From positions 24,761,501 to 24,825,500 of the forward strand of contig NC_079878.1 in assembly GCF_029227915.1 (NCBI RefSeq): DNA of 64,000 nt, written 5' to 3'. Source of the DNA: Hydractinia symbiolongicarpus. Its lineage: Eukaryota > Cnidaria > Hydrozoa > Anthoathecata > Hydractiniidae. The notes beneath the pieces were generated by a model. The model did not search any database. It saw only the letters and a program-made list of their open reading frames with translations, and was not told the DNA's origin. Position numbers and translations under genes: made by a program. Each line of letters begins with the position of its first letter. The first letter of the stretch is position 1. Below are positions 761 through 57,668 of the stretch, piece after piece.

Positions 761-3700
761 AATAGGCACAAAAATGGAGCATTTGGTAGACAATCAGAGA
801 AAAATTACAACATGCGGTATTATCTAACATTTTTGAATTTCCGCGCCCGAAGGCGTAGGAAATTCTTTAAAACCGTCGTTTTTTTCTTTCGGAGCATTTT
901 TTGAGAAAAAGTCGACCCTGGGATTTCACGTTCATCTGAGAGGAGGATAGTATTGATGGTATAACTGACTAACTAACCCTGTCCCAAATGGTCAATTAAC
1001 GTCACAGATTAAAACTTCGTACCCAAGCTCCCTAAGTACTGGGAAATCATCTAAATGATGTTTCAGGCCAAAATTGGACAAAAGTTGGCACACTTAACAA
1101 AAAAGGTATGCTGAACATAATGGCGACATGTTGGTCATCAAATTTTTGATTTTTTGTCAACTAATGCCGTTTAAGACCATAAACGTCTCAACCGCAAGAC
1201 TTTCAACCATGAATGATAGGCTGTATTTTTTGTTAGCAATTTCTTTTAAAATGTGAGTTTATTATGACACATTGCGTTTTGTTTGCGGTTGTTATAAGAT
1301 ATAATGTCACTTGTGTGCTTTATCTTCAGAGCTTTATGCACCAAAACTCTTCGAGTGTTTGGCACGATAACACAACGAATTAGTAGATTGTCATCAAATA
1401 TTTTGGTAGCGAGCGAAAATTCTTAGAGCCCCCAGGGCTTCTTGTTTAAAATTGATATGAACAAACATGCAGCATTTGGTGGACACTAAGTGAAAAAATG
1501 TGGTTTTATTACACAAGTTCCGAAATCATATGCACAAAAATGAAGCATTTGGTAGACAATCTGAAGAAAATTACATTTGGTGGTATAATCTAACATTTGA
1601 AAATTTGTATAAACAAAAAATGCAGCATTTGGTGGACAATAAGTGAAATAGTGTACTTTGCCACCATTTTTTTATCTTTAAAACGTCTATATGCACAAAA
1701 ATGGACCATTTGGTGGACAATAAGTGAAATAATGTGCTTTTAATACATAATGAGGCATTTCGTAAAAAATCTGAAGAAATCTACATTTTGCGGCACTATC
1801 TAATATTTTGAAATTTATATGAACAAAAATGCAGCATTTGGTGGACAATTGGGGCGTTATAACACAATTTTAAAAACTATAGACACAAAGAAGCAGCATG
1901 TGATGGATAATCAGATGAAAATTGCACGTTGCAGTATAATCTAATATTTCAAAATATATATATAAACAAAAATGCAGCATTTGGTGAACATTAAGTGAAA
2001 TAATGCACTTTGCCGGGATTTTTTTATATTTAAAACATCCATATGTACAAAAAATGAGCATTTGATGGACAATAAGTGAAATAATATGCTTTTATTATGC
2101 AATATCAAATATTATAGGCTCAAAAATGGAGCATTTGGTAGACATTCAGAGAAAAATTATATTATGCGGTATTATCTAACATTTTAAAATTTATATTAAC
2201 AAAAATGCAGCATTTGGTGGCCACTAAGTGAAAAAATGGGGTTTTACTACATAGAATCAAAAATTAAAGGCACAAAAATGAAACATTTGGTAGACAATCT
2301 GAGGAAAATTACATTTTGCAGTCCAATCTAATAATTTAAAAATTATATGACAAAAATGCAGAATTTGGTGGACAATGGGTGATAGATTGCGGCGTTATAA
2401 GAAAATTTTAAAAATTATATCAGACAAAAATTGCATGTTGCGGTATAATCTAAAATTTCAAAATATATATAAACGAAAATGGAGCATTTGGTCGACAATA
2501 AGTGAAGTAGTGTACCTTGCCGGGATTGTTTTATATTTAAAACGTCCATATATATAAAAATGGAGTATTTGGTGAACAATAAGTGAAATAATATGCTTTT
2601 ATTACATAATGAAGCATTTGGTACACAATCTGAGCAAAATTATATTTTGCGGTACTATCTAATAATTTAAAATTTATATAAACAAAAATGCAGCATTTGG
2701 TGGACAATGGGTAATAGATTGCGGCGTTATAAGACGATTTTAAAAATTATAGGCGCAAAAATGCAGCACTTGGTGGACAATCAGACAAAAATTGCATGTT
2801 GCAGAATAATGTAACATTTCAAAATTAATATAAACAAAAATAGAGCATTTGGTCGACAGTAAGTGAAATAGTGTGCTTTTATTACATAATAAAGCATTTG
2901 GTAGACAATCTGAGGAAAATTTCATTTTGCCGTACTATCTAATATCATAAAATTTGTATGAGCGAAAATGCAGCATTTGGTAGACACTAAGTGAAATAGT
3001 GGACGTTACCGGAATTTATTTATATTTAAAACATCTCTGTATAAGAAATTGAGCATTTCGTGGGCAATGACGAAAAAACAAGATTTTATTACGCAATATC
3101 GAATATTATAGGCTAAAAAATGGAGCATTTGGTAGACAATCAGAGAAAAAATATATTATGCCGTATTATCTAACATTTTAAAATTTATATGAACAAAAAT
3201 GAAGCATTTGGTGGACACTAAGTGAAAAAATGAGGTTTTATTACATAGAATCAAAAATTATAGGCACAAAAATGAAGCGTTTAGTAGACAATCTGAGGAA
3301 AATTACATTTTGCGGTATTATGTCGTAATTTAAAACTTATTTGAACAAAAATTCAGCATCTCGTGGACAATCAGACAAAAATTGCATGTGGCGATATAAT
3401 CTAACATTTCAAAATTTATATAAACAAGAATGCAGCATTTGATGGACACTAAGTGAAATAGTTACTTTACCGGAATTTTTTTATATTTAAAACATCTTTA
3501 TACACAAAATTGAGCATTTGGTGGATAATAAGTGAAATAATATGCTTTTATTACGCAATATCAAATATTATAGGCTCAAAAATGGAGCATTTGGTAGACA
3601 ATCAGAGGAAAATTACATTATGCAGTATTATCTAACATTTTGAAATTTATATTCACTGAAATGCAGCATTTGGTGGACACTAAGCCAGATATTGCAGTTT

Positions 3701-3845
3701 GTGGGTTTTTTTATGTATTTATAACGTCTATATGTAAAAAAAAGCATCATTGACAAGCATTGTGGACAATAAGTAAAATATTGTGGATTTATTACAAAAT
3801 TTCATTAAATATATGGCTCATTTGATGCACAATCAGGGAAATTAA
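760..3845. repeat. degenerate satellite array, CATTTGGTRGACAAT box
   Basis: Dozens of imperfect units follow one another, each carrying a version of 'AAAATGCAGCATTTGGTGGAC' followed by AATAAGTGAAA or AATCTGAGGAAAATTACATTTTGCG. Neighbouring units are about 60-120 bp apart and alternate between two types (GGTGGAC...AAGTGAAA and GGTAGAC...CTGAGGAAAATTAC), so a longer higher-order unit is likely. Drift is substantial, with unit-to-unit mismatches and length changes, so the array is old. The same box reappears at about 21.06-21.26 kb, partly inverted. No coding potential; the small reading frames here are by-products of the repeat. Confidence 0.85.
843..1445. other. non-satellite insert within the satellite array
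   Basis: Satellite units stop after '...TCTAACATTTTTGAA' and resume at '...AAAATTGATATGAACAAACATGCAGC', which together approximate one satellite junction. The roughly 600 bases between have no CATTTGGT box and a less extreme composition (GCGCCCGAAGGCG near the left end, GAGCCCCCAGGGC near the right). This looks like an insertion into the array, but no clear terminal repeats or target duplication were found. Confidence 0.5.
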
Positions 3846-5640
3846 ATGATCGACATTAAAAATAATATGCGATAATAAATAGCGATGAAGGTCTCATCAT
3901 GTTGATGGCAGAAAGAGGGATCTCTCGGCAAACTAATACCCATAGTCACGTGATCTGAGACAAGAAATTTAAGAATGACAGCATGCTATAAACAACGACA
4001 GAGCTGGAAGGAAATCAATTACGCAGCCTTCATCTTGGTTCTCAATAAACTATTTTTTTTTGTACCACAGTTTCACAACTGTCACTGTTACGACTAAATC
4101 AAAAACACGTGCTGTTCACCAAAAGTTAAAACTTTTATTGGAAACCAAGCAATATTTATTTATCAATGACACTTAAAATATTAATGCAACGCATTATCAA
4201 TGTAACATAACTATGCATATGAAATATACTTACAATAAACGAAGAGTTAATCGTCCAGCTTCAAAGTTTCGAAATATTTTATTAGGTAGCTCTCCAGTTA
4301 GTGCCATGTTTTACTTTGGAAAATTATCATAGGATTGCTGTTTCATGACTTTTTCACAGACAGAATGCAACTATTATTATATAGCTTTACTTATGACTAA
4401 ATAAAAGTTTACAATGACTAAATTTGTATCTCCCTTATAAATAGAGCTAGTCTGCTTCATGGTTTGCTCTCCTGTAACTGTAAATTTGCTTCTTCTTGAC
4501 GGGGATTGCTGTTGTTGTGTGTAGCGCACATTGTTTAGTAAAAAAAGTTGTGAACATTTTCTGGAGAAATAGCGGAGTCATAAAATCATCTTTGAGTTAC
4601 TGTTATTCACGTGGAAACGTCTTCTTTGTCGATTAAAATTTGAGACATGTATTTCTTGAAAACTTCAAAGGAAAAAGAACACTTTCACTTTGCCTGTCAC
4701 AGACAGATAAACAATTTTTTTTACCTTTGTATTTTTTTTTCAAATTTGAGCAATTTTGAGAAAAAAACCATCTCTTTTGTAAGGTTGGATTTTGGTCTAG
4801 TTCGGTATTTCCAGTCATAACTTGGAGGAAAGATAACAGGCAAACGTTGTGTATTAATATAAGACATTTTCCATTAAATACACGCAGTTCCAGTCAAAGG
4901 AATATTGAATGTTTTATGTAAGAAACTTACGCGGAAATAGAGATCAAAATAAGGCAATTACAAATATGTCCCCTGAGCGTATAGAAAACCTTCCACCTAG
5001 TGTGAATAATGAATTCATCATGTATTAGTTTGTGTCTGACCTCGTATCTCCGAAAGAAGCCAAAACATTTTATTAAAAATTAAATTTTCTCATCACATGT
5101 CCACGCTTTTTTGAAAACGTTGCCTTTAAAATGGCGGAGTTGATAATGTAATGCAAGTTTATCAACAGTAGATGTTTAATAATAATCACAATATTCCCAC
5201 ATGGTACGTAAGAGATGCAAGAAATGAGTACTATTTTTGTGCAATAATTCGATATATTGTTATTCCTCGATTACATTTCAAGAGGAATTTCCTTTTAAAA
5301 ATCATTGTAAAGAAACTCATATCCTGGAATGTCCTAATTTCATGGCAAAATTTAGACTCGGGTTGTTTCAGTTTTAGAATCAATATTTAGAGATTGAGAC
5401 TTTTTTTATTTTGGTTAATCAGAAAACATCCGAGGCTTGTGTTTTTATAAAAAAGTGTGTATTCCGTGTAGTTTTAAAATTATCGTCACCGTATCTATTA
5501 TTTTGCGTTACTCTCTCCTCTATGCCTCGTTGTCTTTAAAAGAATAGCACTGGACACGAGAGGGCAATCACTATTTTAAGCCGCAATGTTGCTTCATCCC
5601 TGGACCTACATAACATTTAAGTGATCAATTATGACTTTCC
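3846..5640. other. no recognised gene
   Basis: AT-rich sequence; the longest frames are about 60-70 codons, have no recognisable motif, and are not linked by plausible splice sites. Nothing supportable was seen. Confidence 0.5.
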
Positions 5641-5643
5641 TAA

Positions 5644-6459
5644 GAGGCCGCTTACACGTTAAATTTCATCCCACGTGTTTTGTCCCCGGATGAGTTCATC
5701 TCTGTGTGTACTGAAAGTCTTCACAACGCTTACACGTTTAAGGCGGAATAAAATTTTATTCCGGGATGATATTAAGAAAAAGAAATGAGTGTAAACACCT
5801 ATTCCATTCCGGGATGAGAATGCTGAATGTACACTTTTCACACTTTTTGCGAAAATGATGTTGTCTGTTTAAATTGTCAATTATTCATTTTTATAGGAAA
5901 ATGACGTACAATGAGATGTTAAAAAATTAAGGAGTGTACTGATTGATAGCGACGCAAAAAAATGAAGTGGCGGAAACTTTGCTGAATGAAAATAATGAGG
6001 ATCACACGGCCAACGGCAAGCCAGCAACCTCAATGTTGTCGACATCTAGCCAATGCTTAGTTTCTACCAAACAGCTTCCCTCAGAAGAATTACATTGTTT
6101 CTATATTACTCTGCTAGTTGTATTAATAATACTATATGCAACTGTAACAGAAGGGATGCTATAGTTAAAATTGTCGATATATTTGTGATCAACAATATTA
6201 CACTTCTTCTCTCAGGCGCCATCGTTCTACGTTTCTCGTTTGACCTTTCTACTCACAAATTAAAAAATATCACATCGAATTATCATACGCAAAGTTAGCA
6301 AAGTTAATGTTTCATCCCGGGATTTGATTATTCATCCCAAGATGGAAATATACTGATTTCATCCCTGGATGACGCCCACGTGTAAACACTTTTTGTTTCA
6401 CCCCGGGGCGAGTTTCATCCCGGGTTGAGATTTTATCACGTATGCGTATAAACGTGGTC
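5644..6459. mobile_element. Harbinger-like MITE with TAA target duplication
   Basis: An 816-bp segment starts GAGGCCGCTTACACG and ends, read on the other strand, GACCACGTTTATACG (11 of 15 matching). It is flanked by TAA at 5641-5643 and 6460-6462, the target type of PIF/Harbinger elements. Both sub-terminal regions are crowded with versions of the palindrome TCATCCCGGGATGA in both orientations. No transposase is encoded; two short central frames have no recognised motif. A relic Harbinger transposase exists at about 25 kb, though no specific link is shown. Confidence 0.65.
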
Positions 6460-6651
6460 TAAGTTTCATGGACAATGTAATGCTTGATTGGTTAATCTGT
6501 GCTTACAAAATTATCGTTATCAACGTGCGATACTCTAACTTCTCACTGAAAATTATTATTGGGATGGTTTATCTAGCTTTCCAGATATGAAAGAAGACAA
6601 CAGGCTCTGGGGTCGAGGTCAGCCTACAGTAGTGCAATTAATTGATCTTAG

Positions 6652-6660
6652 ATTACTTTT
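6652..6660. repeat. left 9-bp target-site duplication (ATTACTTTT)
   Basis: ATTACTTTT lies immediately outside the left terminal inverted repeat and is repeated exactly at 13182-13190, outside the right one. If the outermost T/A pair is counted in the repeat, the duplication would be 7 bp (TTACTTT). Confidence 0.85.
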
Positions 6661-6776
6661 ATGGAGTCATGTACTGGACAAAAGTCACGCTATAGAGTGT
6701 CGTGTTGCGTAGTAGAGTGTCGAGGTTCAATATAGATCCCAAGGTCGCGAGGCGTAGTATAGGTGGACGCGAGGCG
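6661..6776. repeat. left terminal inverted repeat (116 bp)
   Basis: Matches the reverse complement of 13066-13181 at 115 of 116 positions; the single difference is T at about 6727 versus G in the other copy. Beyond 6776 the similarity continues but is offset by one extra 20-bp unit in the right arm. Confidence 0.93.
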
Positions 6777-6990
6777 TAATAGTGAGACGCGTATGTAATA
6801 ATAGAGAGACGCGAGGCGTAATAGAAGGACGCGAGGCGTAATAGAGAGACGCGAGGCGTAATAGAGAGACGCGAGGCGTAATAGAAGGACGCGAGGCGTA
6901 ATAGAGAGACGCGAGGCGTAATAGAGAGACGCGAGGCGTAATAGAAGGACGCGAGGCGTAATAGAAATACGTGTAAAGTCGGAGCGTAAT
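6777..6990. repeat. left sub-terminal 20-bp repeat array
   Basis: About ten head-to-tail units of GACGCGAGGCGTAATAGARR. The last bases cycle GAAG, GAGA, GAGA, so the array also has a 60-bp higher-order period repeated three times between about 6810 and 6960. The array gives an open frame of 119 codons on the minus strand, which is a repeat by-product rather than a gene. Arrays of this kind often hold transposase-binding sites; that is inference here. Confidence 0.9.
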
Positions 6991-7475
6991 AAGATGTGTG
7001 ATGGGAGGATCCGTGTCAGAGAAAGAACTACGCTTACATACATCTTCACTTTTTTCTTGTCATGAATACTTTAAAAGGAAAAAATGAAAAAAAAAGATTC
7101 CATACTTGGTGTACAAGGGCTACTAGTTCATCATAACCTCTCGTGTATATTATATGCCTATTAGAGGGGAGTTATGATAAGCAGAATAACAACCTCGATC
7201 AGGGCATAATACAACTTTTCGACGTTGGGACGGGGAAACAAAAAAGAGCGCGCTCTATAATTAGGCACGGGAAGAACTTATTAAATGACTACTGCTGTGG
7301 CTATTTTTTCGCGTGGTTAGAAGAACTGAAGGAGCTTTATTTTACCTAAGCATAATATCTAGTACGTATATAGTGAACAAAATGTTTGAATTTCTTCTTT
7401 GTAATGTATCTAATGTAACTAATGTCAAGTTAAGCAATTCAATCAAAAGTTCTGTGAGTGAACTAATAGTGGTGT

Positions 7476-8918
7476 TCATAACAATGTACTTTCTACGACC
7501 TGAACAGTTCGAAGAAACACTTCGATACCGAAGTTATCGCAATTTGCCATTGGATCGTTAGATCTACAAAATTCCAGGTATAAGTCATTACTTTGAAATG
7601 GATGATTTATCTCGGGAACCACAATAGCATCGTCACGGGTTTCGATATAATGACTCGGTACACTCCAATCTATACCATATGAATCGCAGTCATCGACAAT
7701 ATCATCTTCTGACGGTCTCCTTTGCAACAACAAACCTCTTTCCCATAATTGAAGAGGAGAAAGGTTTCTCTCTGTTCGGATAGGATGGTGATCATAGCCC
7801 AGGATAAATCTTTGAAAATGTGCATTTATTCTTGGAATAAAAACATAATGAAGGCAAAACAAATGCAACTCATTCGATATATCCAAGGCTCCTATCTCTT
7901 CCAAGTAAGTGAATATGTTGTGGTATATGTATGTGCAGCCGTGGAATAGATCTCTCCAGAACCTCTCTATCCTTTGGTTATGGCAACTTTTCCCAGCGAT
8001 AAAGCTACCACGATTACTTCCTCGTCTTGATATCATAAACCAAGCAACGTCTACATTTTCCACCCCATGATCTCCTCTTACACGCGACGGCAAGCCAAAA
8101 TTTTGTACTGCGGTCAGAAATAAATCGAGTACTACAGTAGCCTTGTTACTTGATCCGCACGACAGAAACATTAGACGCCTAGAATACCCATCTATGCCGC
8201 CATGAATGACTATCGACCATCTTATCAATTTGTGATTGCCGTCTATATGCCACAATGACCTTGGCGCTGCAACACTATATTTTCTTCTTCGAACTACATT
8301 ACGTTGCAACGAGCGCATCAATAGCCCTGATGGATCAACCCGCCACATACTATCACGAACAACTTTCCAAGGAATGTGATAACCATGAGACAGTAAAAAA
8401 CCTTTCATTCTACGTATGCCACAGTTAGGAAAATCTGAAATAATTTTTTTGACATGTTCATCAAGTTCCTCGTCACCAATCATAGTGTGCGATTTAGGTT
8501 CAATATCAAACTCTTTAAATCTTCTTTGAATAGTTTTTGCACTTACTCCGAACATTTCAGCTATTGCCGTCTGCGAAAAATTCAACCTCACTAAAGTTTT
8601 TAGAGTTTCCTCAGGTATATCGAAAGAAGGCCTGCCTATCTTGTGCCGTACAGTTTCCGCGTTACTAGTTTTGTTCACTGATTGAATTATCACTGATGCT
8701 TGATGAATACTACTCAGTACATTTTCGGTTATAACATCTGGATACTCTAAAGCTGCTCTAGAGCAGAAGCTGTAAAGTTCATCAAGTCTATAGACAGGAT
8801 AATCCAAATCTGCTGTATTCGCGTCAACAAAGGATGACAATAACGACTGGATTAGTTTCAATGTATCAACAACAGAATTCTTAATAAAATCAACTGGACT
8901 CAATTGTTGTATATTCAT
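7476..8918 (-). CDS. HTH + rve (integrase-type DDE) transposase
   Basis: A 480-codon intact frame. The frame extends 19 codons further upstream, but a splice acceptor (TTTTATTTTTCAG) ends eight bases before the chosen ATG (MNIQQLSP), so the upstream part is probably intron and the gene likely has a 5' non-coding exon. Around residues 106-136 a helix-turn-helix is visible ([19 protein letters not shown]), preceded by [12 protein letters not shown]. The catalytic core has D226 in [11 protein letters not shown]283 in [10 protein letters not shown] and E318 in [10 protein letters not shown], with 34 residues between the second D and the E (D,D34E), the spacing of retroviral-type integrases and IS3-type transposases. 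After the core comes a conserved-looking segment ([34 protein letters not shown]) and an acidic tail. It should bind the terminal or sub-terminal repeats and catalyse cut-and-paste movement in the nucleus. Lies downstream of, and on the same strand as, the HECT gene, 714 bp away. Confidence 0.9.
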
Positions 8919-9632
8919 GTTATATTCTGAAAAATAAAAGTACTGCATAAGTACACGAAATGTCAACAAAACCACTTGTTTGTTTAATCATACAATAAAT
9001 CCTAAAAATGCCAGACGAAATTCCCTCCAAAATGTTCGAAATATGTTTAAAAGTTACTTAACGATAACAGTTCTGTTTTTAAATAACTTTCTCTGAGTGA
9101 GTCGACCGTATATAAGTAGAACATTTTTTCACATAAAGAACAAAATAACAAACATAACCCTTGTGAAATAAAAAGAAAAGAAAAATATCTTCTTGGTTAG
9201 CACAGCTGAATGATAATGCAATGCGTAACTTGATCACGACTATAACCATACATCTTTTCCATATAAAAGTTAGAAAACAAACAAAATAGAACAACAAAAA
9301 GACGAACTTATAAATGCATGTGCAGTATATATAGACTTCAAGGAGCGTACAAGTCAGTCATAAATTCGAGACTAATCATAATCAATCTGATCATTAAAAG
9401 TATGTATATCACTGGAAGAATTCTTGCATAGGACTGACAGGATTTTTATATTCCCCCCCACCAGAAAAAAAATCAGTTTTATAGAAGTGAGGCATATTTT
9501 GGAAGAAAAAGAAAAAAAATCGGCATTTTTTCTCAATGACAACATAATAAGAACAATGACAACATAAGCTAAAAATCGATCACCTTGAAGGAAAAAAATA
9601 AACTCGTTAGTGCCCCTAAAAATTTACAATTA
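8919..9632. other. intergenic spacer inside the transposon
   Basis: AT-rich spacer between the stop of the ligase gene and the start of the transposase gene (both minus strand). It should hold the 3' non-coding end of the ligase gene and the promoter and 5' intron of the transposase gene; the acceptor at about 8927 is the only element I could place. Confidence 0.5.
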
Positions 9633-11995
9633 TCATGGATTTGCGAATCCCTTTGATTCACATGCTAAAGCTGTTGCCAACATATTGTGAAACGCCTTTT
9701 CTACAGAATGAACTGTAGGTAGGTAGATTATTTTTAAACATGCAGAGGATTTGCACATACTGTTTTTTTCATCATCCGACATGTATTTCACTCTGATTTC
9801 ATTTTTCATACCATCCAGTGGAACAACTGTATGACTAGTACAGAAGGCAAGTACTTTACTCAATGTCATACTGTCACTTTTTTCAATAAACGACAGAAAA
9901 AATTTCTTTGCCTGTGTCTCCACGAAGGAAGTTGGTTCGTCAAAACTAAAACATTTGATAAATTCTTTACTCTCAATCATGCGATAACCAGCACAAAATA
10001 TTTGATCCATAACTTTCCAATGACACCGAATCGTATTCAAGAAATTGCACGAGCTCAAACCTTCGAATAACATGTCTGAAGAGTTTCGGCGTGACAATAT
10101 CACATCATTCAAAATGAGTTGTTGAACCAGTAATGGGACATTTTCTTTGTTAATATTCTTGTCGGCAGGCCAATGCGCAGAATTAATAAGTGACCAAAAC
10201 ACATCTTGCTTCTGATTGTCCTTGTAAAGCAGTTTGTCTATATCGTCCTTTGTTTTACATTGATCAAGTGATTCAATCAATTCAATCAAATTTTCAGTTG
10301 TTGCATTTGCTGGTATGTGGCTTTTATTCAAACTTTCAATCAAACTGTCGGTATCTCTACCACACATGTGTAAAAAGTATGGTTTTGCTAATACTGGGAA
10401 GCCGGTGTCAACACCAGCAATCAATGAATGTACGATAATCATACCAGCAACTTTGAAAAGCACAGCTTTTGTGATGTCTTTCACAGGCAACAAACTGTTA
10501 TTTTCACCTTCAAATAGACGATTTTTAACTTCTTCTAACAAAAGGTTGAAATATTCGGTTTTCATTGCCCCACCATCAAGGCCGTCCTCTCCTTTAAACT
10601 CAATGATCAATTTTTTGGTCATAACTTGAGAATTCACAAGGTTCCTTTTGTAAAATCTCAAGGATTCCATCCAAAGATTGTCACGTTCAATTTCCAAAGT
10701 GATTGTATCATTTTCTGAAGCAAGAGATGTAATTTGATTGAGAATTTCTTTTAAAGACATGTCCTTATCTACACATTTAATTTGCAGCATGTCAGACATA
10801 TTTTCACTTGCACTTTTCTCACTCAAAATATTGGCTGCCACATCGATAGATTTGGTATTCCGTAAAATGTCCTGAATTGTGGCTTTAGAGATTCGAGGAA
10901 ACATTGCCGACAAAGTATCGATATGGGGAGAAGTACTTCCTACTTCTTTTTCATTCGATGGCCCAGCTTCATCGTCTATCATCTCTGGAAAAATGTCATC
11001 ATCAAGTTGACAATAAGCTTGATGGAATCTTAAATCATTTAACGGATATTTCTGATTACATCGTACACAGTTAACTTCAATACCTGAATCCATAGTTGGT
11101 TCCTCCATTGGTAAGTCGCTCTGCACTGGTCTGATGTATATTACAGCGTGACCGGGTACTAAATTTTTTAAATAGCTGATAGAATAACCATCTTTTCTTG
11201 GTGGTATCAACACCAATGGTCGGTTTATTCCACCACTCTCAGCCCTCAGAAGTTCAATGCCACCACTCTGTGATGATAATTTTGGATAAGCTTTTGTTAA
11301 CTCTTCCAGAAGCATAGCATGTGTTCCAGTTTTGGAAGGAAAAACAACTTTTTCAATTCCGAGACCAACTTGGTTTAGCTCCATTAATTCACGTGTATTA
11401 GGTGAAACTGATGTATCTTTGTAGCTCAGTGCACAGAATTTATGGGTCCATGTGTCCTTAATGAAGTTATTAGAGAGACGTGGTTTCTTTGCTTGTGGGC
11501 GATATCGGCTACCACCAGCATTCAACGCTGGAAATTGCTTACTGAAACAGAACAAGAATTAAAATAAAAATCTGTCTCAAACATAATAATCTTTCTACTC
11601 AGTGTATACAGAAAAAAATTAAAGTTGAACAAAATCAAAAAAATGAAAAATGTTATAAAAAGGTACAAAGGCACGAAAAAATTCAATAGTCACAATCAGC
11701 ATAATGCCTGTGAGCAGTACTCCTGGAGAGATGATTATTGAAACTTATCGAAAAGATACAAAGGAGGCAATGATCATGCTGGGAGCAGAAATTCACAACT
11801 CTTAAAAATATCAACCTACTTGAAATCTTGTAGAATTCTCTGATGTTGTGGACTTGGATGTAAGTTTGGACTTGGATGTGAGTTTGGACTCTGGAAGATG
11901 TTCTGATTTGGATTATTTTGAGTACTTGTTGTTGATGATGACAGACCATCCAATGCATTATTCAGTCTGTCTATAGCGTCTTTCACTTTCTGCAT
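9633..11995 (-). CDS. transposon-borne HECT E3 ubiquitin ligase with UBZ-like finger and CUE-like segment
   Basis: Two exons: 11820-11995 (58 codons plus 2 nt; donor CAA|GTAGGT) and 9633-11541 (acceptor TTCTGTTTCAG), phase-compatible, giving about 694 residues. Exon 1 is a Ser/Gln/Asn/Pro-rich leader; a further upstream exon is possible because TTGATTCAG precedes its ATG. Domains in order: a leader with ELLRAESGG and AVIYIRPVQ segments; a C2HC finger around 217-236 (C-x2-C-x11-H-x3-C, UBZ-like); a CUE-like helical segment around 265-300 with the diagnostic MFP; and a HECT domain around 364-694. The HECT N-lobe shows EFKGEDGLDGG, and the catalytic cysteine lies in SSACLKIIYLP (Cys660). Expected activity is transfer of ubiquitin from E2 via that cysteine to a substrate; the finger and CUE would bind ubiquitin. 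Resembles animal proteins annotated as G2/M phase-specific E3 ligases. Substrate unknown; the transposase or a host factor are guesses. Confidence 0.85.
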
Positions 11996-12896
11996 GCTGA
12001 ATCAATTTTTAATTCCTAAAACATCACATACAATTTAGCTTGAAAGTTTTGAAAATTACAACCATGCCGATAAATATTCACGATAGTAAGACAAAAATTT
12101 AAAAATGTCTTAAGAATATCCTTAAAGGAAAATCGAATAAGAACATTGTACATATTTGCTGCATTATTTAAAATTCTTGAAAATGGGTGCAGTGTCACTT
12201 GAAGAAAACCAAAACTTGAGAAATTTGCCATCATTACAATACACCTGTTGACAGTGTTGTTGTACACATGCATATGCACCGCACAGTTCCATTTAACTAC
12301 CAGTCGTAGTCCTACGTTCTGTTTTATAAGCTGCCCTGTTTACCTATCAAAACATTGTAATCACATGGTGATACAAAACACAATATTAATACAAAAACAG
12401 CACATTGCTTATAACAGAATAGCATGCAAGCAGTGTAATAACATTTTTCGGCTTATCGGCACCCTCCTCGTTGCAGGGGGAGGGGGGTTGATTGGTGGTG
12501 TATACAAGGGAAGGAAAAAAGGAAGTAAAAGTTGCTAGGGCAAATAATATAATCCATTATTTATAGCAATAGTATAGCTAGCCCATTACAAATTTTAATG
12601 AGAAAATATATATGAGGAGGGGGGGGGGTGCCAGCTATACCTGTGTTGACAAATGTCGTCGTTGCCCTACATTGCTTCCCTTCACTACTACACATACTTA
12701 TGAATTAGCAACTTCTCACAATTTATCAGAATATAACTATAATACAGCAGAAATTAAAAAAACAGGAGAGAAAAAATCAGAGAGAACGGTCAGCCCAGCT
12801 GCTACAAAAACTTACTTTTTCTTTCGTGTTTTGTCTTGATTAATTTGCCAGTCAATTGAAAAAATTCGAAATTTATTCACGGGTAACCAAGGCAAA
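11996..12896. other. right internal non-coding part of the transposon
   Basis: No convincing coding exon. Holds two G-rich runs (about 12474-12487 and 12617-12628) and probably the promoter and any 5' non-coding exon of the ligase gene. The 80-100 codon frames here lack motifs. Confidence 0.45.
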
Positions 12897-13065
12897 TGGC
12901 GCGAAAGTACGCGTCCCCTCTTCCTACACGCCGCGTCGCCCTTGTTTGCGCGTCTTTCCATCACGCAACGCGTCCTTCTGTTACGCATCGCGTCCTTCTA
13001 TTACGCCTCGCATCTCTCTATTATTACATACGCGTCTCACTATTACGCCTCGCGACTCTCTATTT
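12897..13065. repeat. right sub-terminal 20-bp repeat array (inverted)
   Basis: Units of the form CGCGTCCTTCTRTTACGCCT, the reverse complement of the left array, with more divergence toward the inside (TTACGCATCGCG, TCACGCAACGCG). Lacks the 60-bp higher-order expansion seen on the left, so the two arms have evolved copy number independently. Confidence 0.88.
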
Positions 13066-13181
13066 CGCCTCGCGTCCACCTATACTACGCCTCGCGACCT
13101 TGGGATCTATATTGCACCTCGACACTCTACTACGCAACACGACACTCTATAGCGTGACTTTTGTCCAGTACATGACTCCAT
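13066..13181. repeat. right terminal inverted repeat (116 bp)
   Basis: Ends ...GTACATGACTCCAT, followed at once by the ATTACTTTT duplication. Mirror image of 6661-6776 with one mismatch. Confidence 0.93.
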
Positions 13182-13190
13182 ATTACTTTT
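13182..13190. repeat. right 9-bp target-site duplication (ATTACTTTT)
   Basis: Exact copy of 6652-6660, directly abutting the right terminal inverted repeat. Confidence 0.85.
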
Positions 13191-44812: not shown

Positions 44813-47451
44813 ATGAAAATAGCAATACTTGCATTCGTGGCATGTACACTTCTTAGAAAAGCTATGGGAGGTAAGATAGCGAAATAACTGATTTTAGTGT
44901 ATTTACTTAGTGTACTTTTAGCAACCTAACACAAAGATTTGGTTTACTGTACCTTTTTTTGCAGCTTCTGAAGGATTCTACATTATTGCTCACATGTGCA
45001 ACAATGTGGAAGCTATCAATTGGGCAGTCAGAGAAGGCGCTAATGCGCTTGAGATGGATTTAAAATTTGACATGGATGGCAACCCAGTTAAATTTAGCCA
45101 TGGCTTTCCCTGTGATTGTACCTGCAAATGCTCCTTGTAAGATTTTTTTTGTTACTTTTACTGAAATTTTTAAATTGTTTGCTCCCTTTCTTTAAAAGTT
45201 TTGCCACGTCACTTTATTTGTTGGTTTTCACCATTATTTTCTAATAATTAGATTAAGTTAACCTTAAGTATTCGTTTAAATGTTCATCCATTTAAAAGTT
45301 AAACCTGGCAATAACTTCTTTCGAAACTAATTAGAATTCGTATAAACATATTAAAAATTGTTGTTAGCCATTTACTTCCTTTCGCGTACTTGGAAACAAC
45401 GGTCTTATTTTAGCATTATAAAAAGGTGAAACAAAATTGCACAGTGTCAACAGGAAAGGTCCAGGAATTGTCTTTATAAAAAAAAAACAGAATTTAGTTA
45501 AAAAAGATATAGTTAAAAATGTTTTGCATTTGACAGACTTCCTATGATTAGGCGAGAAGGTCAACTGTCAACAAACAGTTGAACTTTATCCATTGCTATG
45601 TGCTAATAACTGAACTTAGCCATAGCAAAGTAACAGTTTTACGCAACAAACTAAGGATACCCCTCGCATCTTTCCCTTAACAAACTTGTTAATGATCGAT
45701 CATTTTATTTCTTCCAATAGTTGTGGCAACAATGTGTGTGCACAACTAAGAAAAACATCCTGGCTCGTACCATGCAACGCTGGAGGCTTGCCAAAGACAT
45801 TATTGAATGTAGCAGGTCAGTTCTTATTTATTACATCCGCTCAATCTTTTTTTTTTCATTCATTGTTTTGTTTTGTTTATGTTTATGTTTTAAATATAGC
45901 AAAAAAATATGTAGCGATGGTAATGATAGACAGCAAACTTGGAAAACTCACAGAAAGTGCTCAGAACAATGCTGCAGAAAAGGTACCCTTTTATCTAGCT
46001 TAGATTTATCAATTCTTCCATCGCTTTGACGCTGGTAGGTTTACCAGTTCATGCTCTTTTTATCTAAATTTTGCTAAAATGAAATAAGGAGCGGTAATAT
46101 TATTTTAGCTTCGCAGTCTTTAAAAATCGAAGACCAAGCCAGCTAAAAGGACTTTCCCATTTAATTTGATTTTACCTTTTCGTCTTTCTAAATTAAATAA
46201 CCATTTTGGTAAAAATCTTACATTCGTGAAACTTAGAGAAACTAATTCGTTTGGTCCGCTAAAGTAAAAACCCGAAACATTGGATCTCTATAATAATAGC
46301 CCGCGTCTGTCTGTCTCTGCGCAGACCCCCCACTGAGTTAGAAAATGATGTTACGGAAACACGAATATCAAATGCGATATATCTTTATCCACTTTGTTGC
46401 GACGGTTAAATTTAAAGGACGGGCGACTCCGAGGATTTTTCCACTGGCTAACAGCTAGTAATATATATTGTCAGAACAAACCCAATCAAATATATTATGT
46501 TTCTTTAAGATGATACACTTATTAGAAAATGAATTGTTTGGGAAAGGTTACGTAGGCCAAGTTATCATTGGAGCTGGAAAATTTTCTTCGTTGCCTTACA
46601 TCACGAAGATATCTGAAACAACATCAATTTACAGGGACAAAATCCACTTCACAATTGATGAAGAAGACATGGTATCCACAAAGAAAACTTTAGATAGATT
46701 ATCAAATAAGAACGTCGTATACAATGTTGGTGTGACACATTGTTCACTGAAAAAAGCCGCAAGTACTAAGTTCTCCAAGTTAGCAGCAATAAACAAGGTT
46801 AAGGGTAAGTGTTTTGGGAAGATTATTTTGTTTAGTGGAGTCAGTGGTAAAAATTACATAAATTTTGTCTTTCGTATGCTCTTTCCGAACTTAAAGCCTA
46901 AAGCAATAAGTACAGGGATTTTACCTTAACTGTTACACAGTTCTGTTCTATTTATTTTACTTCGAAATTTTCCCGCAATAATATCTACAAAAATGCATGC
47001 AAGCTCTTATGATCACTACAAAATATTTTTCTCTGTAGGAGTTTGGGGAATGACCTACGTATGGACAATTGATTGGCCAAGCTCCTTAGCCAATTACATT
47101 AATTATTTCAACGGAATCATCACTAATCATCCAGGAAGACTGGCAAAGATTGTAAGAGAGAAAAACATCCGCCTAGCTACCCCCAATGACGTCATCCCAC
47201 CAGCAACTTCGGAAAGTGTTGTAACGTCGACAGCAGGTTACGAGTCATGTGATTGCGACTACACTTCTGGTGGATGCAAGATTACCAAGCCAGCTCCTAA
47301 AGGCTTAGCATGTCAGTGTGCTAGACGTTTCTGGTGGTCTTGCAGGGGATATGTTGTCCTCTGTAGCGATAATAACAGCTATTACTGTTCAAAAAGTCAA
47401 ACAAGAAAACATGCTTGCCAACTTGGACGAGGAAATTGTAATGGGTATTAA
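44813..47451 (+). CDS. secreted sphingomyelinase D / GDPD-like phospholipase with Cys-rich tail
   Basis: Six exons: 44813-44870, 44965-45136, 45721-45815, 45900-45982, 46510-46804 and 47039-47451. All have GT/AG borders and consistent phases (371 residues). Exon 1 is a signal peptide (MKIAILAFVACTLL). The catalytic set of the spider sphingomyelinase-D family is visible: His in IIAHMCNN, Glu and Asp in ALEMDLKFD, a second His in KFSHGFPCDC, and a third metal-site Asp in AMVIDSKLG. The last exon opens with YVWTIDWPSS and GIITNHPGRL, the TIM-barrel end typical of the GDPD/SMase-D fold. Residues about 303-371 form a separate domain with ten cysteines. Known relatives cleave choline head groups from sphingolipids or lysophospholipids using Mg2+. 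Secretion and all key residues suggest an active enzyme, but a venom role is inference; digestive or defensive roles are possible. Intron 4 contains a dispersed repeat. Confidence 0.88.
46284..46460 (-). mobile_element. dispersed hairpin-start repeat inside intron 4
   Basis: Reverse orientation copy of the family at 39.77 kb: on the minus strand it starts ACTAGCTGTTAGCCAGTGG, passes GGAGTCGCCCGTCCTTTAAA and GTTTCCGTAAC, and ends CAGACAGACGCGGGCTATTA. Confidence 0.65.
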
Positions 47452-56592: not shown

Positions 56593-57668
56593 AATGTAAT
56601 CTACCGCGGACGCAAAAATTGCATAAATAGTTACACAGAACAATAACATTGCGATAGCTATTGTTTTCTTAAGAAAAAAATTGCCTCGTTGATAAACAAT
56701 GACCCCTCGCGATCGATTGTTTAATCACAATAGGTTGCAAGATCAATTTTAGCAATCTTTTTTGGGCGAACTCTTTTGAAATTTTTAATTGCGGTAATTA
56801 AGCGTTTAGATCGCATTTTAAAAATTTATAAACGTAAAGCGGCGATAGAAATGTTTTTTTAGATCACATTTTAAAAGTTTAAAATCGAAAAGCGGCGATA
56901 GAAATGTTTTTTAAATCGCATTTTAAAATTTTATAAACGAAAAGCGGCGATAGAAATGTTTTTTAAGATCTCATTTTAAAAGTTTATAAACGCAAAGCGG
57001 CAATAGAAATGTTTTTTAAGATCGCATTTTAAAAGTTTAAAATCGAAAAGCGGCGATGGAAATGTTTTTTAAGATCGCATTTTAAAAGTTTATAAACGAA
57101 AAGCGGCGATAGAAATGTTTTTTTAAATCGCATTTTAAAAGTTTTTTAGATCGCATTTTAAAAGTTTAAAAACGAATAGCAGCGATAGAAATATTTTTTT
57201 AGGTTCGCATTTTAAAAGTTCATAAACAAAAAGCGGCGATAGAAATGTTTTTTTTAGATCGCATTTTAAAAATATATAAACATAAAGCAACATTTAATAG
57301 TTGTGAACAATGCTTCTCGTATGTTTCTTAAATTAAATGCGCTGGAATCTTTTTAAGTAATTAAATCAACAATACATTCTCACGAAATGTATTATAAAAC
57401 TCCGCCAAAGGATTTTTATTATTTAATTACTTCATGCTAATACTTAAGGGAATAGCTTATCAATACATTTACACAATGCATCTCGCTATTACAAGAAATA
57501 TAATTGCTTCGATATATCTTCGCGAGCGCATTGTTTTTTAACACGCAAATATAAACTCGCAAAACCCTTAAGGGATTTAATTATAACAAAAGAGAAACGA
57601 CTGTCATCCTCCACGCAAAGGTGTGATATTAGCATGTACGCGGTAGATTACATTCAGACTGTACTGTA
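56579..57668. mobile_element. element with perfect 30-bp inverted ends enclosing a minisatellite
   Basis: Bases 56579-56608 are the exact reverse complement of 57639-57668 (30 of 30; core CAGTCTGAATGTAATCTACC). The 1,030 bp between hold a ~53-bp minisatellite and AT-rich sequence, without a transposase. The left end overlaps the right end of the MITE at 56352-56592, so either the two were inserted side by side or they form one compound element. A Helitron-derived or foldback element are alternatives. Confidence 0.6.
56790..57295. repeat. ~53-bp minisatellite, eight to nine units
   Basis: Units of AGATCGCATTTTAAAAGTTT, ATAAACGAAAAGCGGCGATA, GAAATGTTTTTT repeat with few mismatches; GCGGCGATAG-type cores lie near 56840, 56890, 56945, 56998, 57048, 57100, 57180 and 57232. 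One unit has an extra partial copy near 57135. Lies entirely inside the inverted-end element. Confidence 0.85.

Follow-up and report, generated by a model that had tools for sequence, protein, structure and literature searches.

A 64,000-nucleotide (nt) stretch of the Hydractinia symbiolongicarpus genome (contig NC_079878.1, positions 24,761,501 to 24,825,500; hereafter, the window) holds a full-length DNA transposon at positions 6660 to 13182. The element measures 6,523 base pairs (bp), and its minus strand carries two genes, one for a transposase (8948-7476) and one for a ubiquitin ligase of the HECT type (11995-9633). Transposons with accessory enzymes are no novelty; this pairing recurs across at least six transposon families within the one genome. 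The parts of the element, including its open reading frames (ORFs) and their lengths in amino acids (aa), are as follows.

6653-6659, no strand: left target-site duplication TTACTTT, 7 bp; the same 7-mer lies outside both ends, TATGGA..TCCATA
6660-6791, plus: left terminal inverted repeat, beginning TATGGAGTCATG; 132 nt, 97% complementary to the right arm
6746-6965, no strand: left subterminal array of 20-bp repeats, about 10.8 copies
7476-8948, minus: transposase ORF, 490 aa (Pfam rva_4/PF24764, 3e-78)
about 7722-8279, minus: rve/rva_4 core; the rve match is under the curated cut-off
about 8508-8591, minus: helix-turn-helix; match under the Pfam curated cut-off
9633-11384, minus: HECT ORF (HECT PF00632, 4e-14; CUE PF02845)
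9633-11541, minus: exon 2 of the HECT gene, with the stop codon
9654-10772, minus: HECT domain, both lobes (model residues 262-634 of P0001)
9738-9740, minus: codon of catalytic Cys660, aligned to the catalytic Cys of SMURF2
10818-10931, minus: CUE ubiquitin-binding domain (PF02845, 8.7e-6, above the curated cut-off)
11010-11069, minus: C2HC finger of UBZ type, CVRCNQKYPLNDLRFHQAYC, found by pattern search
11542-11819, minus: predicted intron, 278 bp, GTAGG..TTTCAG (GT..AG), in frame, predicted from sequence
11820-11995, minus: predicted exon 1, 176 nt, ATG at 11995
12949-13101, no strand: right subterminal array of 20-bp repeats
13051-13182, minus: right terminal inverted repeat, ending TCCATA, placed by complementarity and by comparison of ends across copies
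13183-13189, no strand: right target-site duplication TTACTTT, matching the left 7-mer

The ends TATGGA..TCCATA are fixed by other copies in the genome, and it follows from them that the window duplication is 7 bp long. Searching for this end motif yielded 19 paired ends, with a duplication of 6 bp in 14, of 7 bp in three (window included) and none in two. As the flanks of L046 and L047 are identical, these two represent one insertion, which leaves 13 independent cases of 6 bp; the two pairs without a duplication, L037 and L038, belong to a rearranged cluster on contig C10, and the absence is explained by the tandem or rearranged state of its copies. The subterminal 20-bp arrays are probable binding sites of the transposase.

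The two proteins and the class of the element

The transposase shows the catalytic triad D236, D293 and E328; 34 residues separate the second aspartate from the glutamate (DD34E). In an alignment of 14 sequences, both aspartates are invariant and the glutamate is present in 13, P0018 having a lysine instead. The Pfam listing, the only source consulted for an HHCC domain upstream, contains no zinc domain. Foldseek searches with a structure model (mean predicted local distance difference test, pLDDT, 75.1) returned Mu transposase, retroviral integrases, IstA and TnsB at E values of 4e-5 to 1e-3, and these modelled likenesses support the fold class and not a close relative; a sequence search of the PDB gave a single weak helix-turn-helix match.

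The predicted spliced HECT protein comprises 694 aa, with a conserved N-terminal part, the C2HC finger, the CUE domain and the HECT domain; predicted exon 1 has no Pfam match. Its structure model (mean pLDDT 79.5) matches HECT domains across both lobes, so that the two-lobed fold is present. The catalytic cysteine was found in all 19 C-lobes examined, window included (16 by pattern, L053 and L056 by alignment, L058 by its identity to L053); of 31 HECT protein matches, a named subset was covered by this check. Fish contribute four of the 19, labelled at source as HECT domain-containing (two) or uncharacterised (two). The finger pattern occurs in 15/15 HECT proteins scanned, the window protein being one of them. 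Pfam lists no finger in the window protein, and among the relatives P0136 alone passes the cut-off. A viral fold library searched with the HECT model returned general HECT proteins of giant viruses, and scans of viral contigs with alignments of both proteins confirmed no relative.

The element matches the IS3EU superfamily, a known class of DNA transposons. This assignment follows from the TAYGG..CCRTA ends, the 6-bp duplications and the rve-type transposase, all of which agree with published descriptions: in the available text of PMC10045372, IS3EU elements have TA..TA ends and usually 6-bp duplications, and fungal members are described in the available text of PMC12730594 with TAYGG..CCRTA ends and genes for a transposase, TET/JBP and an alpha-kinase. 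Ginger1 and Ginger2, with duplications of 4 bp and 4-5 bp, respectively (PMC10045372, available text), are ruled out by the 6-7 bp seen here.

A first-pass annotation of this DNA had anticipated much of the above. Its long terminal inverted repeats are borne out, as are the transposase with a helix-turn-helix and a D,D34E rve core (rve and helix-turn-helix matches lying below their cut-offs) and the UBZ, CUE and HECT modules of the second protein, the finger by pattern only. Its two uninterrupted minus-strand genes hold for the two ORFs, although the HECT gene has gained a predicted intron. The proposed 9-bp duplication is absent from all 19 paired ends; that reading had included the T/A at the termini together with a fortuitous match. 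Nor does the element constitute a new class, and a new superfamily is ruled out, given the fit of ends, duplications and transposase to IS3EU.

Copies of the element in the genome

The 480.9-Mb genome was searched with the left 140 bp of the element; 40 of 62 candidates were scored, making all counts lower bounds. This revealed at least 21 left ends and at least 20 right ends. A full-length identical transposase match was found at no fewer than 10 places, window included. Copies of almost full length occupy different sites, each flanked by its own duplication, and share 99.6-99.97% identity with the window copy, which makes the family young and recently active.

We examined 20 regions, corresponding to 18 loci with the window when the C10 cluster and the L046/L047 pair are each counted once; outside the window, intactness of the HECT gene was judged on exon 2 only. 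Both reading frames are intact in 8/18 loci (window, L031, L032, L043, L044, L045, L048 and L049, the last counted as intact with an in-frame 7-residue gap in the transposase). The transposase alone is intact in four (L034, L039, L040, L046/L047), HECT exon 2 alone in one (L050, a single end only) and neither in five (L033, L035, the C10 cluster, L041, L042). Part of one or both genes is gone from each of the 10 non-intact loci, through a deletion or truncation of its own. These internal deletions vary between loci, as would fit loss in situ after excision. Among the loci examined, we found no HECT-deleted form that had spread by transposition, each deletion being limited to a single locus or to a duplicate nearby. 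The first-pass picture of a young transposon in which the two genes travel together stands, as does, for the most part, the expectation of same-ended copies carrying both.

Two of these places have features of their own. In the C10 cluster (L036-L038, C10:7938187-7954828), deleted copies are grouped, three left ends are spaced at exactly 3,744 bp, and some copies lack right ends or duplications, indicative of local amplification and rearrangement. The L049 copy ends 29 bp from C9:26494733-26495503, a transposase match of another IS3EU family, and given this proximity its target may have been an older IS3EU element.

Transposase and HECT genes in other families and organisms

We asked how often the two genes meet outside the window family. 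Genome-wide searches gave 96 transposase matches (87 of 616 candidates scored) and 51 HECT matches (75 of 92 scored), both being lower bounds. Among the matches listed, 22 HECT matches fall in the window family and 29 outside it. Seventeen of these 29 lie within 6 kb of an outside-family transposase match, 11 in convergent orientation and 6 on the same strand, compared with a mean of 0.06 near pairs, and a maximum of 1, in 2,000 trials of random placement. The 6-kb limit was our choice, and placement was uniform along contigs, ignoring the clustering of repeats and taking a guessed size of 24 Mb for contig C15. The 17 are not independent: two come from one locus (C12) and at least six from one family.

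Ten loci (L051-L060), taken from the transposase matches regardless of HECT, were then read by hand. HECT-like sequence adjoins the transposase in eight of them, representing five further families; this recurrence beyond the window family adds to the support for the first-pass annotation. The genes are convergent in one family comprising L051, L052 and L054, and likewise in L056, L059 and L060, each a family of its own; in the family of L053 and L058 they share a strand with the transposase first, and in the window family they share a strand with the HECT gene first. The HECT-like sequences of L059 and L060 were found with other HECT queries and stand outside the 51 matches. Transposases of the five families are 38-49% identical to that of the window family and 34-42% to one another in a projected alignment; global alignment gives lower values, 32-39%, for the window against L051, L053 and L056. 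Ends of the form TAYGG..CCRTA with 6-bp duplications were seen in L051, L053, L054, L056 and L057, while L055 has no exact duplication. In L051, L053, L054 and L056, TATGG..CCATA ends and 6-bp duplications accompany both genes or clear parts of both.

L053 (element 3124-9203) is a second young HECT-bearing IS3EU family, with inverted repeats that match perfectly over at least 201 bp and the 6-bp duplication GTAGAC. SAM-like domains lie at the N-termini of both its proteins. In the HECT protein the SAM_1 match is just at the cut-off (E 1.1e-4), and the score of the mutual alignment of the two regions was reached by none of 2,000 shuffles. These paired domains hint, at the level of sequence, that the two proteins may be in physical contact.

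Two further loci deserve mention. L057 contains an element at 3095-7649 with TACGG..CCGTA ends and a 6-bp duplication, whose second ORF, on the minus strand at 5339-5986, finds no match in Pfam. Beside the L056 element, ORFs at 1406-2392 resemble an IS3EU-type transposase, with 24% identity to that of L053.

Relatives of both proteins also turned up in other data. P0011 (transposase) and P0132 (HECT) are 51% and 42% identical to the window proteins, and each is on a contig of 10,225 bp; the relatives P0032 and P0003 are both on contigs of 750,594 bp. These equal sizes suggest that the pair is present in two other data sets. Across six pairs, the identity matrices of transposase and HECT protein correlate (Mantel r 0.91; 6/720 permutations as high), one pair being assembled within a family, its HECT pieces taken from L054 and its transposase from L051. 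A sample tree was made of 24 sequences (the window, the 10 loci and 13 of 120 listed proteins out of 1,321 matches), built from fragments projected onto the window transposase; in it the HECT-bearing loci are scattered among transposases of a coral, sponges, a fish and a mollusc, with several nodes weakly supported.

Elsewhere in the window, two adjacent plus-strand ORFs at 46510-47451 (139 and 152 aa, the second cysteine-rich) have no Pfam match above the cut-off, and tandem arrays occupy 2050-3684 (unit of about 152 bp) and 56805-57289 (unit of about 53 bp).

Proposed role of the ligase and known systems

On balance, we lean toward the view that the window holds an autonomous cut-and-paste IS3EU transposon from an old and diverse set of two-gene IS3EU elements with a HECT E3 ligase, and that the ligase favours the element. 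Because transposase and HECT gene are found together in several families that are only distant relatives, their pairing looks like a lasting partnership and not an accident, one in which the ligase would serve the element. As we picture it, the transposase would bind the subterminal repeat arrays, cut the ends and join them to the target at positions staggered by 6 bp. Once brought to the transposition complex, or to ubiquitin already there, the ligase might ubiquitylate the transposase or neighbouring chromatin or repair proteins, whereupon the complex could be dismantled, repair steered or silencing limited, allowing the element to persist. In animal IS3EU elements, the ligase probably acts on the transposase complex: the ubiquitin-binding modules of the window ligase and the SAM-like domains carried by both proteins of the L053 family point to this target and place it slightly ahead of host defence. 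A bolder version, in which the HECT ligase is an ancestral and widespread partner of animal IS3EU transposases working directly on the transposition complex, is offered tentatively, as we would not expect it to hold in full.

Several observations weigh against a general and functional pairing. Twelve of the 29 outside-family HECT matches have no listed transposase within 6 kb, one having its nearest at 7.6 kb. From the transposase side, only 16/62 matches have a listed HECT match within that distance, a lower bound since decayed copies and diverged HECT exons were missed. HECT was not detected in L055, a decayed locus, and L057, from a divergent IS3EU family, has no detectable HECT gene. The differences in gene order and strand between families leave room for repeated acquisition or rearrangement. 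In four of the 18 loci of the window family, an intact transposase stands beside a broken HECT gene. The modules invoked above are themselves not general, for L056 shows no C2HC finger by eye and CUE was found by Pfam in the window protein only, among ten sequences compared. At E 0.0037, the SAM match of the L053 transposase is a weak one that falls short of the Pfam cut-off, and linkage in the two other data sets is read from contig size alone.

Some of these points are what one would expect if the ligase were a passive passenger, that is, if IS3EU elements had captured host HECT genes once or more without any help to transposition. Variable gene order and orientation would suit such a history, as would the broken HECT gene in 9/18 loci of a young family; transposons do swap accessory genes, as with the fungal TET genes (PMC12730594, available text). 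We nonetheless regard this as unlikely, given a pair that recurs across transposases 34-49% identical, with correlated divergence and the cysteine in 19/19 C-lobes, and given no HECT-deleted form spread by transposition among the loci examined. Recurrence, correlated divergence and the conserved catalytic residue instead point to selection on the ligase.

A somewhat stronger competitor, though still one we doubt, has the ligase acting on host defence, be it PIWI-interacting RNA, chromatin or DNA-repair factors, and not on the transposition complex. By analogy, IS3EU and other fungal transposons carry TET dioxygenases for which an escape from silencing has been proposed (PMC12730594, available text), and the finger and the CUE domain might allow binding to host proteins that carry ubiquitin; against this, the presence of SAM-like domains in both L053-family proteins speaks for contact with the transposase, and the present results contain no host target. 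That transposons simply invaded a cluster of host HECT genes, so that the neighbourhood arose by chance, is highly improbable. The 12 HECT matches without a nearby transposase could be cited for it, yet the HECT gene lies inside the terminal repeats of full-length copies at separate sites with their own duplications, and 17 near pairs face an expectation of 0.06. We rejected this explanation, as copies at unrelated sites contradict it.

Should the ligase indeed be such an ancestral and widespread partner at work on the transposition complex, many of the HECT genes that occur repeatedly in cnidarian and fish annotations would be transposon genes, and eukaryotic transposons would possess a self-encoded ubiquitin step in their cycle. 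Being compact, recently mobile and intact in frame, the transposase-HECT pair offers a system, in a hydroid kept in the laboratory, in which to ask what ubiquitylation does in complex disassembly, repair and silencing. It would also caution annotators that transposons are the source of some multi-copy animal HECT genes. Our searches turned up no paper in which a ubiquitin ligase encoded by the element itself takes part in DNA transposition. Literature searches combining HECT or G2/M E3 ligase with transposon and IS3EU terms yielded no description of the pair, although one may exist in Repbase only; the class is known, and for its HECT partner we found no published account.

How, then, does the element compare with known systems? 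With cellular HECT ligases such as SMURF2, HUWE1 and UBR5, the window ligase shares the catalytic cysteine and the HECT fold of the two lobes, at 13-19% identity in the structure matches shown, and differs in its N-terminal part, which has a conserved domain of its own, the C2HC finger and CUE. Accessory enzymes in DNA transposons are already known, for instance in Kolobok lineages (PMC9587614, available text). With IS3EU, a Repbase superfamily, as described in the available text of PMC10045372 and PMC12730594, the element has in common the TA..TA or TAYGG..CCRTA ends, the usual 6-bp duplication and an integrase-type DDE transposase; the term HECT does not occur in the main text of either paper. 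GingerRoot shares 6-bp duplications and mostly TA..TA ends, and in the available text of PMC10045372 it is not separated from IS3EU and no HECT gene is mentioned for it. The fungal TET-bearing IS3EU elements (PMC12730594, available text) encode a kinase and a dioxygenase in place of an E3 ligase, in fungi and not in a cnidarian. They nevertheless belong to the same superfamily, carry a second enzyme gene and orient transposase and alpha-kinase oppositely, just as transposase and HECT are in the L051/L052/L054 family, L056, L059 and L060.

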